64,000 nucleotides of DNA from Candidatus Bathyarchaeota archaeon (GTDB lineage Archaea; Thermoproteota; Bathyarchaeia; Bathyarchaeales; Bathycorpusculaceae), in assembly GCA_022865885.1 (NCBI GenBank), contig JALHSQ010000095.1:1-64000 (forward strand), read 5' to 3'. How positions within the stretch are numbered: the first letter of the stretch is position 1; the number at the start of each line of letters is the position of its first letter. The notes beneath the pieces are model-generated. The model saw only the letters and a list, made by a program, of their open reading frames with translations. It had not been told where the DNA came from and made no database searches. Of this stretch, positions 1,456 to 14,226 are shown one piece after another. The position numbers and the translations under genes are program-made.

Positions 1456-4400
1456 ATGAAAGGAGAAACAAGCATATACTTATCTGCATTGATTGCGTTT
1501 CTGATGCTGATTCTGATTTTCCCATTGCCTTCAACATTCAGCTGGAGTTACGGCAACCCGGCAAAAACCAGCGACACGAAATACGAGAATTACGGCCCAA
1601 GAGCCGACAAACTGCTCATCAACCTGTATTCGGACGATGCTACTGAATGGCACGCTCTTGAAACGGGACAGATAGATGTTACAGACTGCCCCCTAGACGA
1701 TGCACACTACAACAGTTACACGACACCACCATGGAACAACACAATTGACGTGTTGGGCTACGGTCCAGAATTCGGACTGTACCTGTTCGACCTCAACAAT
1801 AACAACAACCTGTACCTAGGCAACCCGCAAAACCCAGCTTACCCGAACCCAGTGTATCCAAACCCAATGTCCGACGTTGACCTCAGAAAGGCAGTTGCTT
1901 ACCTGTCTGACAGACAGGCTTACATCAACTACATTGGCCCAACAACCGTTACTGCCCTCTACACCCCAGTAGGTCCCTCTGCCGGAAAGTACGCTTCCCC
2001 AACAATTTACCCAGGCGGAGACGACGAGGCTTTGTGCTATCTGTACAATCCAGCTGCGGCTAACGCCACACTTGATGCTGGCGGATTCCCAGTTGGTCCA
2101 GGTGGCTGGCGCTATTGGGACATGAACGGCAACCACGTAAAGGATGCTAGCGAAGACCTCGTTCTAAAGATTGTCGGAAGAAGCGACAGTTCGGCGAGAG
2201 CGTTCGCAGCTAGTGACATATCTACTAGCCTGAGAGCCGCAGGAGTCTTCACCAGTCTAAGCCTTGCGCCAAGTGGCTTTGCCAGGCTGCAGGTTATGGG
2301 CAACAAGAACTACCACATCTACACAGGCTACAAGGCTGTCAGTCCTGAGCCTGATTATCTCGTAGACTGGAATTGGGACTACTACTGGCACCCAGGCCGA
2401 CCATACAACTATGCTGGATGCAACAGTGCAGCATTCAACGCTGCAGCTGACGGTGTCCAGTATGCCAACGATCAAGCTGAAGCCGTAACCAACGCACACG
2501 AAGCCGAATACGCTTACTGCCATGAGTGCCTTAGCGTCCCGTTGTGGACAAGCACAGGATTCAAGGCTGCAAGCAGAACATACGTGGGTGGAACAGCTGG
2601 AGAAGCCGCGGCAGGATATGTTGGCAACTATTGGGAAGACTTCGTCAACATTCCTGGCTACGGTGTTGATAACGGCTTCAGTTTCATGGACATGCACCCA
2701 GAAGGCTACGCATATGGCAACGGCAATATGACGATACGCTACGGTTTCAAGCAGCCAGAAATCGATTCGTTTAACCCAATCTACGCTGATTCGTCTTGGG
2801 ATAACAAGGTGATTGACCTGATCGGATACGACAGCCTTCTAAGCAGAAACCCATACAACTTGGGCCAGTTCATGCCTATGGTTGCGCTGAAGTACACCGT
2901 CAGCACCTACCTTCACCCGGATTGGGGGACATGCAGCAAAGTCGTATTCACTCTTAGACCTGGAGTCGAATGGAGCGACGGCACGCCTTTAACGATGGCA
3001 GACGTCTATTTCACGTTAGTCGAAATCGATGGATTGCTTGAGAGTCGGGGACTGCCTCCGCCAAGCTGGATCCGCAATGTCATGGACATCCTATCCTTTG
3101 AGGTATTAGATCCATACAGTTTCGAAGTGCTGTTCGACGTCAAGAGCATCTTTGCAGTCAATTGGCTTAGTGCGGTTCCAATCTTGCCCGAACACGTCTG
3201 GATGCCAATAATTACAGCTGGAGATCCGACAGGCTTCGCTCCTGATCCAAACATGATAGGTTGTGGTCCCTTTCGGCTTCAGGAATATGTTCCGGGCAGC
3301 CATCTGCTACTGGTTGCCAACGCGCCAGACACGACAGTAACGAGTCCAGTTGCAGGTGCTACACCAGTTACTTCAGATATGGGCTTTTACCGCTTCTCAC
3401 CAATAACCGGCTACCTAACGGTTCCAGGAACCGACTACTACAAGTTCAACATGTCAGCTGCGCTGAACGCGATTGATGTGCACTTCGTCAACGAAAAGTC
3501 TGTTGCAGTGACATGCGACTTGACTGCGACGATCACGGAACCAGACGGTACATCCATAGTAGCCACACTTGCTGGCGTTTCTGTCAACCCGGGAGGCTTT
3601 GTATGGCACAACCCGTGGCCAATAGCGCCACTACAACACTACGGATTGTGGAAAGTAGCCATCTCCGCGACGTTTTCGGACCGTCCGAGCACGTGGGCTG
3701 CAACTGAGCTATTGTGGGTCACAATCAGAGAAGACATCTGCGGCAGCACTTGGTATGACGACATGGGACTAGGCTCATATCCCTACAAGAACAAGCTACC
3801 AAGCCCTGACATTGCAGTAGACACGCAAGACGTAAAAAGAGCAGAACATGCTTGGGGCACGTCCCCTGGAGATGCCAGGTGGGACCTCGTAGCAGACATC
3901 GTTAAAGACTACAAGATCGACGTCCCAGACAGTGCAGCTATTTGTAAGAAATATGGCTGGTTAGGTTCGCCTATAGACATAGCAGTCATCAGTGTTTACA
4001 ATGCGAAGACAGGCTGTTCTCCGTTGCCAACGGTATGTCGAAACATGACAACGCAGGTCTATGTAATTGTAGAGAATCAGGGCGACTACCCTGAAACTTT
4101 CAACGTGACCGCATACGTCCAATCAACAATGATCGGGGAGCAATCTGCAACCGTGAACCCGAAACAAAACACCACGGTGACCTTCATATGCAACACCACA
4201 GGCTTCGTTGAATATGGGAACTACACCTTTGCCGCGCAAGTATCGATGCTGCCTTACGAGACGCACTTGTACGATAACACTTTGACGAACAGCTCAGTGA
4301 TAGTCACACACATGGGAGACATTGATGGCAACAAGAAAGTGGAAGTCAAGGACATCGCAGTAATATCGCAAGCCTTCGGAGCCAATCGCGAAACAAACAC

Positions 4401-4545
4401 TTCCAGCCCAAAGTATGGCCAATATTGGCATCCTACAGCATGCAGCAAATGCCCACACCCACCGAACGCAGACATCGACGACAACGGCAAAATCGAAACA
4501 AAAGATGTAGCTTTCGCAAGCAAATTCTTCGGCTGGGTCGGATAA
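1456..4545 (+). CDS. Secreted ABC-type peptide/solute-binding protein (family 5, apparently permuted) with CARDB and dockerin domains
   Basis: A 1029-residue protein with an N-terminal hydrophobic signal segment (about residues 8-30). It carries hallmarks of SBP_bac_5 (DppA/OppA-type) proteins but in swapped order. The C-lobe signatures come first: LETGQIDVTD near residue 70 and DVDLRKAVAYLSDRQ near 141. The N-lobe signatures come later: LRPGVEWSDGTPLT near 500 and GCGPFRLQEY near 602. From about 840 to 945 there is a CARDB-like beta domain, then two dockerin calcium-loop repeats (DIDGNKKVEVKD near 955, DIDDNGKIETKD near 1006). It should lie outside the cell, held by cohesin-like or surface contacts, and bind oligopeptides or other solutes. 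No transporter permease or ATPase genes are adjacent. It is flanked by 65-bp direct repeats. The family call is confident, the ligand unknown. Confidence 0.8.
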   Translation: MKGETSIYLSALIAFLMLILIFPLPSTFSWSYGNPAKTSDTKYENYGPRADKLLINLYSDDATEWHALETGQIDVTDCPLDDAHYNSYTTPPWNNTIDVLGYGPEFGLYLFDLNNNNNLYLGNPQNPAYPNPVYPNPMSDVDLRKAVAYLSDRQAYINYIGPTTVTALYTPVGPSAGKYASPTIYPGGDDEALCYLYNPAAANATLDAGGFPVGPGGWRYWDMNGNHVKDASEDLVLKIVGRSDSSARAFAASDISTSLRAAGVFTSLSLAPSGFARLQVMGNKNYHIYTGYKAVSPEPDYLVDWNWDYYWHPGRPYNYAGCNSAAFNAAADGVQYANDQAEAVTNAHEAEYAYCHECLSVPLWTSTGFKAASRTYVGGTAGEAAAGYVGNYWEDFVNIPGYGVDNGFSFMDMHPEGYAYGNGNMTIRYGFKQPEIDSFNPIYADSSWDNKVIDLIGYDSLLSRNPYNLGQFMPMVALKYTVSTYLHPDWGTCSKVVFTLRPGVEWSDGTPLTMADVYFTLVEIDGLLESRGLPPPSWIRNVMDILSFEVLDPYSFEVLFDVKSIFAVNWLSAVPILPEHVWMPIITAGDPTGFAPDPNMIGCGPFRLQEYVPGSHLLLVANAPDTTVTSPVAGATPVTSDMGFYRFSPITGYLTVPGTDYYKFNMSAALNAIDVHFVNEKSVAVTCDLTATITEPDGTSIVATLAGVSVNPGGFVWHNPWPIAPLQHYGLWKVAISATFSDRPSTWAATELLWVTIREDICGSTWYDDMGLGSYPYKNKLPSPDIAVDTQDVKRAEHAWGTSPGDARWDLVADIVKDYKIDVPDSAAICKKYGWLGSPIDIAVISVYNAKTGCSPLPTVCRNMTTQVYVIVENQGDYPETFNVTAYVQSTMIGEQSATVNPKQNTTVTFICNTTGFVEYGNYTFAAQVSMLPYETHLYDNTLTNSSVIVTHMGDIDGNKKVEVKDIAVISQAFGANRETNTSSPKYGQYWHPTACSKCPHPPNADIDDNGKIETKDVAFASKFFGWVG

Positions 4546-4999: not shown

Positions 5000-7507
5000 G
5001 TGGCAATGTCTAGGAGAACAGTTTCTGCAGTAATAATCGCAATGCTGTTAGCGGGCATCTTAACAGCGGCGTTTAACGTTCAACCAGTTCGGGCAAGCGC
5101 AACCATTTACATACGAGCTGACGGAAGCATAGACCCGCCGACAGCACCTATCTATACCGCAGACAACATTACGTACACTTTAACTGGCAACGTCATCACC
5201 GCTAGTGACGGAATTGTGATTGAGAGAGACAACACTTTTTTGATTGGGGCAGGATACACCGTTCAAGGATCTGAAGGCCACGGATATGGAATAACGCTCT
5301 CTGGAAGAACCAACGTAACGATACAGAGCACGGCTATCATAGTGTTCCGGTGTTGCCTCAAACTCGATCATTCTTCAAACAATAGCATAGCCGGAAATAA
5401 CATAGCAGGATACAACATGGGTTCCCCTGCTGGCTCTGGTATCTGGCTTGGCCTTTCTTCAGGCAACAGCATAAACGGAAACAACATAGCAACCAACCAT
5501 GCCGGCATGCTTTTTGTCTCTTCATCGAACAACAGCATAGTTGGAAACACTATAACAAACAACGATATGGGCATCCGTTTCCATCCTTATAGTGATAATA
5601 ACAGCGTGAGCGGAAACAACATAACAGCAAGCAACTACGGTGGCTATGGCATCGTGCTTTCGGGTTCTAATAACAGCGTGAGTGGAAACTCGTTTGTTAA
5701 TTGCGGCTTAGACGTGTCTGGTTACTATGGGAATGTTGTGACTGGTAACTTGGTTAATGGCAAGCCCTTAGTTTATCTTGAGGGTGTGTCAGACTATGCA
5801 GTTGGGGATGCTGGACAAGTCGTACTCGTCAGATGCAACAAGGTAACCGTGGAAAACCTCAACTTATCCAGCGCCACCGTCGGCGTTGAATTATGGGAGA
5901 CAAACAACACCGCAATCTCGGGAAACAACATAACAGCAAACTACGCAGGTGGCATTAACCTCTACTCTTCTTCTAACAATAGCGTGAGCGGGAACAACAT
6001 AACAGCAAACTACCACAATGGCATTGTATTACTTTCTTCTTCCAATAATACAATCTACCATAACAACTTCATAAACAACGTCCCTTATTCTCCTGACTCA
6101 ACTAATGTTTGGGATGACGGGTATCCTTCTGGGGGAAACTACTGGAGTGTCTACACGGGCTTGGATCAGAAATGTGGTCCCAGCCAAGATCACCCGGGAA
6201 GCGACGGCATGGGAGACACGCCTTACGTCATTGACAGTAGCAACCAAGACAATTATCCGCTCATGAACCCTTGGACTCCGCCGGCTGGCCACAACGTTGC
6301 AGTGGTTAGCGTCGTGTCATCCAAGACCGTAGTCTGTCAAGGTTTCAGCGGCAACGTAACCGTCTACGCTGCCAACAGGGGTGAATACTCTGAAACATTC
6401 AATGTGACGCTCTCCGCCCAAAACCAAACAGCCGTCAACCAAACAGGCTTAGTTGGCTGTTGGAAGTTTGACGAGGGAGCCGGAACGACAGCGTATGATA
6501 GCTCTGGAAATGGCAACAATGGGACTTTGGTGAACGGGCCTACTTGGGCGGCCGGAAAATATGGCGAGGCTTTGAGTTTTGACGGGGTAAATGATTATGT
6601 TGAAATCGCGGGGAACACAGACTTGAATCCGTATACCAGCGATTGGACCGTATCAGCTTGGGTAAACCTGAACAAATTGTGTCCCTACATATACGGTCAA
6701 CCATACATCTACGGTTTCGTCATATTGGGGAAGAGGCAATCAGAATTTGATAACAGCTTGACTCTGTTGGTTCATTCTGGTACCAATGCGACTTCTCAGG
6801 CGAGATTCGGGTTCATATGGGACGGCTCTATGCAGGCTGCAGGTGCGCAAAGCGATTTGATGAACGTGTTCGGTTGGCACCATGTTGTTGGCGTAAGAAG
6901 AGGCGGCGAATTGTATGTTTATGTTGACGGAGTGGAATACGGACCCAACAACTACCTGTATGCAGGCAATAACATTACGTCAGCAACGAGTATCAGTTCT
7001 GCCACGCCCGTACGTCTAGCTTATCACGGAAGTTGGTTCTTTTACAATGGGACCATAGACGAAGTAAGAATCTATGATAGAGCATTGTCTGCTGGAGAAA
7101 TACTGGCTCAATACGAAGGCGTGATATTTGCCATTCAAACAAGAACCGTTACTCTTGCGGGGTCTTCTTCAGCAACGTTGGCCTTCGTTTGGAACACAAC
7201 AGGCGTTCCATATGGAAACTACACTTTAAGCGCATGCGCTTGGCCTGTCCAAGGCGAGACAGACACGGCGGACAACAACTTCACGGGCGGTTGGGTTGTA
7301 GTCTCGCCGATTGGAGACATTACGGGCCCTGACAGTTATCCAGACGGAAAAGTCGATGTAAGAGACGTAGCCACGGTTGCAAAGCTCTTCGGCGTCAACT
7401 ATCCAGACACTCGATTCAACCCAAACTGTGACATAAACAACGACCTAAAAATCGATGTCATGGACGTGGCCTCAGTGGCCAGGCACTTCGGAGACCACTA
7501 TCCTTAA
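5000..7507 (+). CDS. Secreted right-handed beta-helix protein with nested LamG domain, CARDB and dockerin
   Basis: An 835-residue protein. Signal peptide about 1-33 (cleavage likely near VRASA). Residues about 60-410 are parallel beta-helix repeats of NosD/PbH1 type, seen as repeated NNSVSGNNIT-like units. From about 431 a CARDB-like domain begins, is interrupted at 484-708 by a LamG/concanavalin-like domain (WKFDEGAG, YDSSGNGNNG, DEVRIYDRALS), and resumes to about 765. Two dockerin loops end the protein (about 773 and 811). Beta-helix plus LamG suggests binding or cleavage of extracellular polysaccharide, but no catalytic residues were identified. ATG at 5006 has a GGAG five bases upstream and may be the true start rather than GTG at 5000. 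Its C-terminal layout is shared with the 1456-4545 protein. Confidence 0.8.
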   Translation: MAMSRRTVSAVIIAMLLAGILTAAFNVQPVRASATIYIRADGSIDPPTAPIYTADNITYTLTGNVITASDGIVIERDNTFLIGAGYTVQGSEGHGYGITLSGRTNVTIQSTAIIVFRCCLKLDHSSNNSIAGNNIAGYNMGSPAGSGIWLGLSSGNSINGNNIATNHAGMLFVSSSNNSIVGNTITNNDMGIRFHPYSDNNSVSGNNITASNYGGYGIVLSGSNNSVSGNSFVNCGLDVSGYYGNVVTGNLVNGKPLVYLEGVSDYAVGDAGQVVLVRCNKVTVENLNLSSATVGVELWETNNTAISGNNITANYAGGINLYSSSNNSVSGNNITANYHNGIVLLSSSNNTIYHNNFINNVPYSPDSTNVWDDGYPSGGNYWSVYTGLDQKCGPSQDHPGSDGMGDTPYVIDSSNQDNYPLMNPWTPPAGHNVAVVSVVSSKTVVCQGFSGNVTVYAANRGEYSETFNVTLSAQNQTAVNQTGLVGCWKFDEGAGTTAYDSSGNGNNGTLVNGPTWAAGKYGEALSFDGVNDYVEIAGNTDLNPYTSDWTVSAWVNLNKLCPYIYGQPYIYGFVILGKRQSEFDNSLTLLVHSGTNATSQARFGFIWDGSMQAAGAQSDLMNVFGWHHVVGVRRGGELYVYVDGVEYGPNNYLYAGNNITSATSISSATPVRLAYHGSWFFYNGTIDEVRIYDRALSAGEILAQYEGVIFAIQTRTVTLAGSSSATLAFVWNTTGVPYGNYTLSACAWPVQGETDTADNNFTGGWVVVSPIGDITGPDSYPDGKVDVRDVATVAKLFGVNYPDTRFNPNCDINNDLKIDVMDVASVARHFGDHYP

Positions 7508-10276: not shown

Positions 10277-11194
10277 GTGCAGATTGTTGAATGCGTACCC
10301 AACTTCAGCACGTCGGATCCGAAGACAGTCGAGCTTATTCTTGAGGAAATCAGGAAGATCGGCGGCGCCTTCTTGCTGGATGTCACGTTTGACAACTATT
10401 ACAATAGGCTGGTTGTTTCCTTCGTAGGCAGCAAGGAATCAGTGCTCGAGGCTGCTTTGAAAGCAGCGTCTAAAGCCATTGAGCTGATTGACATGCAGAA
10501 CCATACGGGTCAACATCCCCGTATAGGTGCAGTTGACGTTATTCCATTCATACCGAACAAGAACGTGACCATGGAAGAATGCGTTGAGTTAGCGAAAAGA
10601 TTCGGGAAGAATTTAGCGGATAAGTGCGGCGTGCCGGTTTACCTTTATGGCGCAGCATCTGAAAGACCTGAGCGTGGAGATTTAGACTGGATTCGCGAAG
10701 GCGATTACGAAAAACTGGCTGAGAACATTGTAAAACCAGAACGCAAACCCGATTTCGGCCCAGCCAAGTTCAACCCAAAAGCTGGCGCAACTATTACAGG
10801 TGCACGCAAGGTCATGGCTGGCTTCAACGTTAATCTTAACACAGCTGACTTGAAGGTTGCCAAGAAAATCGCCAAAGCTTTGCACGCACACAAAGGCGGC
10901 TTTTCAAACGTTAAGGCCATGGCTGCCTTTATCCCGCAGATGAACATCACGCAAATAGGTATGAGTATAAGCGACTTTGAGAAAACCCCGCTTTACCGTG
11001 TCTTCGAAGCACTGAAGGTTGAGTGTGCACGTTACAACGTCTCAATAATCAGCTCAGAATTCTGCGGCATGGCACCCTTGAAGGCTTTAATTGACGTAGC
11101 CGGGTACTACCTCAAAGTCGGCAATTTAAGCGAAGATCGCGTACTAGAGATCGCAGTGCACAATGCCATGGAAAAAGGCGGGGCTTTTGAGTAA
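10277..11194 (+). CDS. ftcD: Glutamate formimidoyltransferase
   Basis: A 305-residue protein matching the formiminotransferase part of FtcD. It transfers the formimino group of N-formimino-L-glutamate to a tetrahydrofolate-type carrier, giving glutamate, the last step of this branch of histidine degradation. The opening VECVPNFS, and GQHPRIGAVDVIPF at residues 78-91 with the conserved histidine, are family hallmarks. The cyclodeaminase domain found in animal FTCD is absent, as in most prokaryotic forms. Start is GTG. The next gene, hutI, overlaps its end by about 30 bp, so the two are surely co-transcribed. Whether the carrier is folate or a methanopterin cannot be told from sequence. Confidence 0.92.
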   Translation: MQIVECVPNFSTSDPKTVELILEEIRKIGGAFLLDVTFDNYYNRLVVSFVGSKESVLEAALKAASKAIELIDMQNHTGQHPRIGAVDVIPFIPNKNVTMEECVELAKRFGKNLADKCGVPVYLYGAASERPERGDLDWIREGDYEKLAENIVKPERKPDFGPAKFNPKAGATITGARKVMAGFNVNLNTADLKVAKKIAKALHAHKGGFSNVKAMAAFIPQMNITQIGMSISDFEKTPLYRVFEALKVECARYNVSIISSEFCGMAPLKALIDVAGYYLKVGNLSEDRVLEIAVHNAMEKGGAFE

Positions 11195-12503
11195 ACGTGG
11201 AAAGCGAAAATCTAGAGAAACTGTAGACTTACTTATTGTGAATGCTAACGAATTGGTAACCCTCGCTAGCAGTAGCCAAAAACCTCGCATAGGCAAACAG
11301 ATGAAAGAGCTTGGGATAATACACGATGGCGCCATCGCCATTCGAGACGGACGAATTGTCGCCGTCGGAAAAACATCAAGCATTACAGGGTCATTCAAGG
11401 CAGGCAACGTAATCAGCGCCAACGGCAAAACCGTTCTACCAGGATTCATTGACCCTCACACACATCTCGTCTTCGCAGGCTCCAGAGAGGACGAATTCCA
11501 GATGCGTATTGAAGGCGCTTCATATCTGGAGATCCTCAATGCCGGCGGCGGCATATTGAGAACAGTAACGGACACACGAAAGACAAGTGTTGAAAGACTT
11601 GTCGATACGTGCATGGAGAAACTTGATATTATGCTCCTGCACGGAACAACCACCGTTGAAGCCAAAAGCGGCTATGGTCTGACGACAAAAGATGAACTAA
11701 AAATCCTGGAAGTCATTCGACGTGTGAATCAGCTGCATACAGTGGATATCGTTGCCACATTTCTAGGAGCACATGCCGTCCCACCTGAATACAAGGGCAA
11801 CACGCAAGGCTACGTCAACTTGATAGTTGACGATATGTTGCCAAAAGTGACTGAGAAGGTGCTTGCCGAGTTCTGCGACGTTTTCTGCGAGAGAGGCGTC
11901 TTCAACTTGGAACAATCCAAACGAATCCTAGTTAACGCAAAGGAATGTGGCCTAAAAGCAAAGATTCATGCTGATGAGATGAGCTTACTGGGAGGAGCAG
12001 AACTTGCAGCAGACGTCGGCGCCGTTTCAGCGGAACACCTGCTTTTTTCTTCGATAGACGGTTTTCAGGCGATGGCTGCAAAAGACACAATCGCAGTCTT
12101 GCTCCCTGCAGCAGCATTCAGCCTAATGATGGGTAGATATCCTGATGCACGGTTGATGATTGATCTTAATGTTCCTGTCGCTCTGGGCACAGACCACAAC
12201 CCGAGCTGCCTAGTAGAGAGCATGCAACTGATCGTTGCGTTCGCTTGTCATTTCATGAGGTTGACTCCAGATGAAGCCATAACCGCCGCCACGATTAATG
12301 CTGCTCATGCTTTAGGCAAGGCACATGATATTGGTAGTCTAGAAGTTGGCAAGAGAGCAGATGTCGTCGTTCTGGATATGCCGAATCATAAATTTCTCGG
12401 GCATCATTTTGGCATGAACCTCGTAGACAAGGTTGTCAAGAATGGAAGAATTGTGGTTGACAAGGAAATCGGTCCCAGCGGAATTGTTCATCTAGAAGGC
12501 TGA
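11163..12503 (+). CDS. hutI: Imidazolonepropionase
   Basis: An amidohydrolase of 446 residues that opens the imidazolone ring to form N-formimino-L-glutamate. Visible features are the metal-binding [16 protein letters not shown] (residues 93-108, HxH), [16 protein letters not shown] and the late GTDHNPSC segment. The ATG used here overlaps ftcD; family members usually begin near the VDLLIVNA strand (residue 21), so TTG at 11187 is an alternative start. It lies between ftcD and hutU, which catalyse the following and preceding steps. Confidence 0.92.
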
Positions 12504-12537
12504 AATTGCCTTCTTAATCTGGGTAAAGACTAATAAC

Positions 12538-14226
12538 GTGCCCCTTCTCAGTTTTTGTTGGTGCACAGATTTGCGAATTGAGAAACCGATACGCTGTTTG
12601 ACAGGGCCTGAACTACATTGCAGAAATTGGCAGATCGAGGGAATTCTACGTATGCTTTTTAGCGTTGTTGACCCCGAAGTAGCCAAGGACTCAGATCACC
12701 TCATAATTTACGGCGGAACAGGAAAGGCTGCACGAGACTGGACTTGCTTTGAAAAAATCGTGGACACATTGATCGCGCTTGAACCTGATGAAACTATGTT
12801 GATTCAAAGTGGCAAGCCCGTGGCCGTTTTCAAAACACACACATGGGCGCCAAGGGCCTTAATTGTTAATGCTATGCTTGTTCCAAAGTGGGCAACTTGG
12901 GATTACTTCCACGAATTGGAACAGAAAGGCTTGATAATGTATGGACAGATGACTGCCGGTTCATGGGCCTACATAGGAACACAAGGGATTCTACAGGGTA
13001 CTTATGAAACCTTGGCCGCTGTTGCCAGAGAGCATTTTGGAGGAAGTCTGCGTGGTAAACTTGTTTTGACTGCCGGTCTCGGTGAGATGGGTGGTGCGCA
13101 ACCTTTGGCTGTTACAATGAATGACGGCGTAGCACTTGTTGTTGAAGTTGACAAGCGGGCTATCGACCGCAGACTCAAACACAAGTACTTGGAAATGTGG
13201 ACTGACGACATGGATGAGGCTTTAAACCTGGTTACAGAAGCCAAGAGAGAAGGTAAGCCTAGGAGTGTTGGGTTGCTGGGCAATGCTGCAGAAACACACC
13301 CCGAGCTCTTGCGGAAAGGCATAATCCCGGATGTTCTAACAGACCAGACAAGTGCACACGATCCATTAAACGGCTACTACCCTGCAGGATTGAGCAAGGA
13401 AGAAGCGGACAGATTGAGAGAGAACAATCCAAAGGAATACTGCAAACGGGCCAACGAAAGCATGCGTTTACAGGTTGAAACAATGGTAAAGATGATGAAG
13501 AAGGGATCTGTAACCTTTGACTACGGAAACAACATTCGTCAACAAGCATACGATGCAGGGTTTAAAGAAGCATTCGCATATCCAGGATTTGTTCAACGTT
13601 ACGTAAGACCAATGTTTTGTGAGGGAAAGGGACCTTTCCGTTGGGCTTCGCTTGTGGGCAGCACTGAAGATATTTACAAACTCGACGATGTCATTCTAGA
13701 CGAATTCTCATATAACACCGAACTGTGCCGTTGGATCAGAAAAGCCAAAGAACAAGTGAGATTTCAAGGTTTACCCGCACGGGTTTGCTGGCTTGGTTTT
13801 GGAGAAAGAGCACGGTTCGGCAAGATAATTAATGATATGGTTGCTGACAAACGGCTAAGCGGGCCAGTCTGGATTGGCAGAGATCACTTGGACGGCGGAA
13901 GCGTGGCTTCACCGAACCGCGAAACAGAGGGCATGAAAGACGGAAGCGATGCGGTAGCAGATTGGCCAATTCTTAACGCTTTGGTTAATGCCGTCGGTGG
14001 CGCCACGTGGGTGAGTGTGCATCATGGTGGCGGTGTAGGGATAGGGTATAGCATACATGCTGGTATGTGTCTTGTGGCGGATGGAACGAAAGAAGCTGAA
14101 CAACGATTGCTAACTGTTCTAACAACAGATCCTGGAACAGCTGTAGTAAGACATGCGGACGCAGGATACGAGGACGCACAGAAGATGGCGAAGGAGAAAC
14201 ACATCAAAATGCCCATGTTACAGTAG
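12538..14226 (+). CDS. hutU: Urocanate hydratase
   Basis: A 562-residue NAD-dependent enzyme that adds water to urocanate to give imidazolonepropionate. The family pattern is complete: TGPELHC near residue 22, [11 protein letters not shown] at 57-66, [28 protein letters not shown] and the closing [17 protein letters not shown]. The GTG at 12538 gives about ten residues more than usual before the conserved region; TTG 12571 is a possible alternative. It is third in the order ftcD-hutI-hutU. Histidine ammonia-lyase (hutH), which makes urocanate, is not in the window. Confidence 0.93.

Follow-up and report, generated by a model that had tools for sequence, protein, structure and literature searches.

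A circularly permuted family 5 solute-binding protein in Bathyarchaeota and other Thermoproteota

Introduction

The window, a stretch of 64,000 nucleotides from a Candidatus Bathyarchaeota archaeon (contig JALHSQ010000095.1, positions 1 to 64,000), contains a gene whose product has the motifs of a family 5 solute-binding protein in swapped order, with LETGQIDV at residue 68, DVDLRKAVAYLSDRQAY at 140, RPGVEWSDGTPLT at 501 and GCGPF at 602. Is this chain a whole binding protein in a circularly permuted form, or what is left of two? The four positions agree with the first-pass annotation of the window, except that the motif at residue 602 reads GCGPF and not GTGPY. Natural circular permutations of ABC binding proteins have rarely been reported, and the nearest case, TpMglB-2 (Tp0684) of Treponema pallidum, belongs to another fold class. 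TpMglB-2 is a circularly permuted glucose-binding protein that is still functional, and its authors raise a link between permutation and tethering (PMC4990184). It resembles the window protein in being a naturally permuted ABC binding protein, but is bacterial, has the Type I/cluster B sugar-binding fold and is permuted at another site, whereas the matches of the window protein are to family 5 (cluster C). A full-text search of the open literature, with subscription papers outside its scope, found no permuted family 5 protein.

Results

Parts of the gene and family assignment

The gene lies inside the contig and is intact in one frame. Its parts are as follows.

1456..4545, + strand: whole gene, 1029 aa, a single open frame with Pfam SBP_bac_5 in two swapped pieces
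1456..1545, + strand: likely signal peptide, aa 1-30, a hydrophobic N-terminus by eye in the translation
1576..2667, + strand: normal second half, now first, aa 41-404 corresponding to normal 199-504 (hhalign)
2668..2715, + strand: linker from the old C-terminus to the old N-terminus, aa 405-420, the gap between the aligned halves
2716..3333, + strand: normal first half, now second, aa 421-626 corresponding to normal 1-202 (hhalign; Pfam profile 19-138)
3334..3798, + strand: probably a beta-rich linker region, aa 627-781, without a Pfam match and read from the sequence
3799..3969, + strand: degenerate dockerin-like module, aa 782-838, resembling other modules of the genome
3970..4305, + strand: CARDB-like segment, aa 839-950, resembling other secreted proteins of the genome
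4309..4542, + strand: C-terminal dockerin-like module (Pfam Dockerin_1, E 0.015, below the cut-off)

The family assignment comes from Pfam SBP_bac_5 (PF00496), which matches with 127.6 bits against a cut-off of 32.4 (E 8e-37). The match is in two pieces, residues 43-306 aligning to profile positions 137-360, followed by window positions 2941-3324 aligning to profile positions 19-138. Normal-order paralogues from the same genome match profile positions 2-367 in one piece, indicating that neither the genome nor the search as such produces the swapped order. A phmmer search of the PDB returned the second piece only, which it placed on the N-terminal region of known binding proteins. The accessory domains proposed in the first-pass annotation stand in part. 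A CARDB-like stretch is present at residues 839-950, but Pfam reports no CARDB match up to E = 1 in the window protein. For the dockerin, the Dockerin_1 (PF00404) score of 15.9 bits falls below the cut-off of 22.9, although the C-terminal module contains two loops, DIDGNKKVEVKD and DIDDNGKIETKD (4318-4353 and 4471-4506), which both fit the calcium-loop pattern. The module at residues 782-838 has one imperfect calcium loop.

No transporter genes are found beside the window copy. The protein encoded just downstream (5000-7507 of the window) has NosD/beta-helix, laminin-G-like and dockerin domains, and further along (10277-14226) adjacent genes, read by eye as those for glutamate formimidoyltransferase, imidazolonepropionase and urocanate hydratase, would make up a set for histidine degradation.

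Alignment to single and doubled normal-order profiles

With hhalign, a profile built from 21 permuted relatives was compared with a profile of nine normal-order Bathyarchaeia proteins, present as a single or a doubled copy. The single copy gives two matches, with permuted positions 4-367 corresponding to normal 199-504 and permuted 384-589 to normal 1-202. The doubled copy gives one match, which runs along normal 199-509, through the old ends and on along 1-202 (E 3e-48), with a score of 397 that is approximately the sum of the separate halves (220 + 187). The linker at residues 405-420 is bridged within one alignment to the doubled profile. Every SBP_bac_5 segment is present once, with none lost and none duplicated (normal 1-202 and 199-504 are each covered once), in the order 199-509 then 1-202 rather than the normal N-to-C order. 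Controls of normal order obtained far higher scores and aligned along a full normal copy, which excludes a general artefact of the test as the source of the swapped order. The cut lies at normal position ~200, in the loop after the strand LxANxxYF, an NPxYW-type loop following the GTGPY strand; in the window protein the new cut of the first half falls after LLLVAN. Judging by OppA/DppA, this site is presumably in domain I.

The first-pass annotation had proposed a circular permutation and named a permutation-aware alignment as a check. The proposal is borne out by the one continuous match to the doubled profile (score 397) and by the order common to 51 homologues (see below), and the window protein is confirmed, as far as its sequence can tell, as a complete circular permutant of a family 5 binding protein. 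Tandem duplication followed by loss of opposite halves is a standard route to permutation. No intermediate was found for such an origin, which the first-pass annotation had also raised. Candidate tandem duplicates, in which low-threshold hhalign extensions of some proteins reach normal position ~870, were rejected; they look like over-extension, as the C-terminal tails consist, to judge from the sequence, of Ig-like, dockerin or membrane segments.

Distribution and phylogeny of the permuted proteins

Matches to the permuted protein were found in 34 of 61 genomes in a search of close relatives and in 103 of 220 genomes phylum-wide at E 1e-20; some of the matches are partial, and the individual checks cover part of the set. 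When the proteins were ordered by their matches to separate half-profiles, 61 had the C-half first. Removal of duplicates, fragments and one protein of another type (type 2, below) left 51 non-identical proteins, here called type 1, from many genera of Bathyarchaeia and other Thermoproteota including ammonia-oxidising archaea; named hosts are Thermoprotei archaeon AUK163, Candidatus Wolframiiraptor and several Bathyarchaeota. Eight tested genomes carrying matches (families f17, f44 and f47) encode archaeal AmoA, which identifies them as ammonia oxidisers, and a profile led by an ammonia-oxidiser protein aligned end to end with the type 1 profile (E 6e-43). On plasmids, the best type 1 matches among those listed are all two-piece, as expected for proteins of normal order.

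The C-half tree unites all 48 type 1 rows in a single clade (SH-aLRT 99). The order requires one change on this tree and two on the N-half tree; several long branches make the details of the trees unsure. A single origin of type 1 would be compatible with the N-half tree as well, and the two trees together agree with one gene having been permuted once and not with fusion on repeated occasions. Type 1 is an ancient lineage of the Thermoproteota.

The window's genome carries near-copies of the permuted gene (88-90% DNA identity) that are cut at the ends of contigs C39, C230, C185, C232 and C49. Contigs C39 and C230 each have exactly 141 bases identical to the end of C232, an overlap that marks a branch in the assembly, where a recent duplication has copies that differ in their C-terminal parts.

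A second permutant, type 2, is cut at normal position ~350 (~330-364). By hhalign against the doubled profile, L077, L078 and L003 align along 330-509 and then 1-364 (E 1e-44), and L094 does likewise. The members are L003/L021, L077, L078, L132, L223:4914-6653 and WP_066111853.1, and the hosts comprise the window's own genome (L003, at C27:18802-22854), other archaea including haloarchaea, and Alphaproteobacteria. The plasmid-borne WP_066111853.1 of Salipiger sp. CCB-MM3 matches the type 2 profile over 541 columns (E 2e-80), its gene standing at the end of a permease-permease-ATPase-ATPase operon, and a plasmid of Halalkalicoccus jeotgali shows the same type 2 order. Like type 1, type 2 is a permuted family 5 protein adjoining opp genes, but it differs in its cut, in its mostly normal-length OppC and in its place in the N-half tree, where four type 2 rows cluster amid proteins of normal order, apart from type 1. 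This separate place argues for permutation on at least two occasions, and most likely, judging by these alignments and trees, the family 5 binding proteins were indeed permuted at least twice. The recurrence of the order across the phylum and the second, apparently independent version point to an old, working design and not an accident.

Transporter operons and the enlarged OppC

Type 1 genes adjoin oppB-oppC-oppD-oppF sets at about 30 loci, which indicates that the fold is in use. One of these is a copy in the window's genome, on contig C232, located after genes for OppB, OppC, OppD and OppF. OppC is 467-851 aa long in 29 of 30 type 1 operons, compared with 282-324 aa in all 14 normal-order operons (Fisher p 1e-10, without correction for relatedness). 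The difference is due to an extracytoplasmic insertion of 150-550 aa between the first helix (OppC_N) and the permease core, as in L020:292-2829, L109:7973-10525, L042:7522-9381 and about 26 more. The insertion has no confident Pfam match in the type 1 operons, and its best PDB match reaches only E 0.55. An OppC that adjoins a type 2 binding protein (L131:2979-4649) has a different insertion, which resembles a beta-propeller (YCF48/BNR-like, Pfam E 3e-7). For several operons a conserved small gene in the stretch from oppC to oppD was considered and rejected, there being no common open reading frame on the operon strand. The one exception in OppC length is L177, where the permuted protein is paired with a short OppC of 315 aa. 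This lineage is an early branch of the C-half tree, which suggests that the permutation preceded the OppC insertion.

C-terminal tethers

A C-terminal tail of at least 50 aa is present in 50 of the 51 type 1 proteins and in 11 of 45 normal-order proteins (34 of 45 have tails under 50 aa). A membrane helix ends 17 of the 51 type 1 proteins, 15 contain a recognisable dockerin loop and others have dockerin-like repeats by eye; among type 2 proteins five of six end in a membrane helix. The suggestion in the first-pass annotation that permutation makes space for the dockerin arm is not supported in that form. Normal-order proteins of the same genome also end in dockerins (L024, 1435 aa, and L022/L004, 789 aa), so that a dockerin is carried without need for permutation, and 17 of the 51 permutants end in a membrane helix instead. 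The dockerin as the reason for the permutation was thus rejected as stated; C-terminal tethering in general is nonetheless associated with permutation. Five cohesin domains, the partners to be expected for dockerins, are encoded on contig C185, also home of a permuted copy. On the same contig, 41.8-61.1 kb hold a cluster of secreted proteins with cohesin domains or dockerin-like modules, a possible surface scaffold.

Predicted structure

AlphaFold models were obtained for the window protein (pLDDT 61.5, pTM 0.58) and for L037, the homologue from Thermoprotei archaeon AUK163 (pLDDT 67.2, pTM 0.67); the N-half is their least certain part, and the moderate scores are probably due to the small number of input sequences. 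For both models, the matches listed in Foldseek searches of the PDB are binding proteins of family 5, with AppA, DppA and NikA at the head for L037. These matches keep sequence order and cover about 290-380 columns, part of the chain only. Among the matches listed there is no solved structure that spans the new junction of either type. Structure prediction, a further check named in the first-pass annotation, goes part of the way: the matches are to the expected family, and pTM values of 0.58 and 0.67 are too moderate to show the joint packing of the halves. The exact complementarity of the halves and the conservation of their order suggest a single fold, most likely the bilobed one that is usual for binding proteins.

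Discussion

The explanation that we favour, and consider as a whole very probable, is that the gene encodes a secreted family 5 protein of the DppA/OppA/NikA type whose chain starts at normal position ~200, proceeds to the old C-terminus, passes over a short linker to the old N-terminus and finishes at ~200. With DppA, OppA, AppA and NikA (family 5/cluster C, PF00496) it shares all segments, likely secretion and the opp-type operon context, as well as profile and Foldseek matches to AppA, DppA and NikA; it differs in the swapped order of the halves. The permuted protein would deliver its solute, peptides or something similar, to an ABC importer of the Opp type, and the type 1 chain would continue from the C-terminal end of the fold into a tether, which is a dockerin here and a membrane helix in other members. 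The window copy is 57-71% identical to other near copies and has no transporter beside it, and so probably represents an additional specificity for a shared importer. It would be an extra binding protein for the transporter of the C232 paralogue, presumably held on the cell surface by contact of its dockerin with a cohesin. As far as sequence and gene context indicate, the most likely role of the window protein is to bind solute for an Opp-type importer while tethered to the cell surface.

The same motif order could be obtained if two truncated binding proteins from different genes had been fused head to tail, as a degenerate remnant without a joint fold, and the AlphaFold models, with pTM values of 0.58 and 0.67, leave joint packing unproven. 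The halves are, however, exactly complementary, cut at 199 and 202 with no loss and no real overlap, and their order is kept in intact frames in 51 proteins across the phylum, many of which adjoin intact transporter operons; both half-trees also group the permuted proteins (two changes for the N-half and one for the C-half). Such a fusion is therefore improbable. That several similar copies in the window's genome end at contig edges might point instead to misassembled repeated genes or a frame artefact, an explanation we regard as negligible, since this order recurs in tens of independent genomes, of which several are nearly complete, and the window gene is internal to its contig and in a single frame; misassembly is ruled out by this recurrence.

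Two readings of why the chain was permuted are compatible with the circular permutant as such. Permutation may have served to move a chain end to a C-terminal anchor, a dockerin or a membrane helix, as suggested by the tails of at least 50 aa in 50 of 51 type 1 against 11 of 45 normal-order proteins and by the membrane helices of five of six type 2 proteins. This reading is possible but somewhat doubtful, as the counts are inflated by relatedness, the normal-order L024, L004 and L081 have a C-terminal dockerin or membrane helix without permutation, and no anchor is present at the end of WP_066111853.1, the bacterial protein of type 2. The permuted protein might alternatively form a standing docking complex with the extracytoplasmic insertion of OppC, with which the long OppC of type 1 operons (467-851 aa in 29 of 30, against 282-324 aa in all 14 operons of normal order) and the placement of the insertion between the OppC_N helix and the permease core would agree. 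We consider this rather unlikely, given that the pair may be co-inherited merely as one operon and that the early-branching L177, with its OppC of 315 aa, suggests that the permutation came first. As a speculative synthesis, to which we likewise give a low probability, family 5 proteins would have been permuted at least twice, and one lineage, coupled to a docking-domain OppC, would have spread in the Thermoproteota including ammonia oxidisers, the binding protein being held from its relocated chain end.

An ancient, phylum-wide permutant of a very common peptide-binding family escapes standard models, which match it as two broken pieces, and its carriage by ammonia oxidisers bears on the annotation of binding proteins in abundant archaea. 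The link of the type 1 permutant to an enlarged OppC is directly testable, and the permuted proteins are a natural experiment in how the ends of a binding protein's chain must be placed with respect to the permease.
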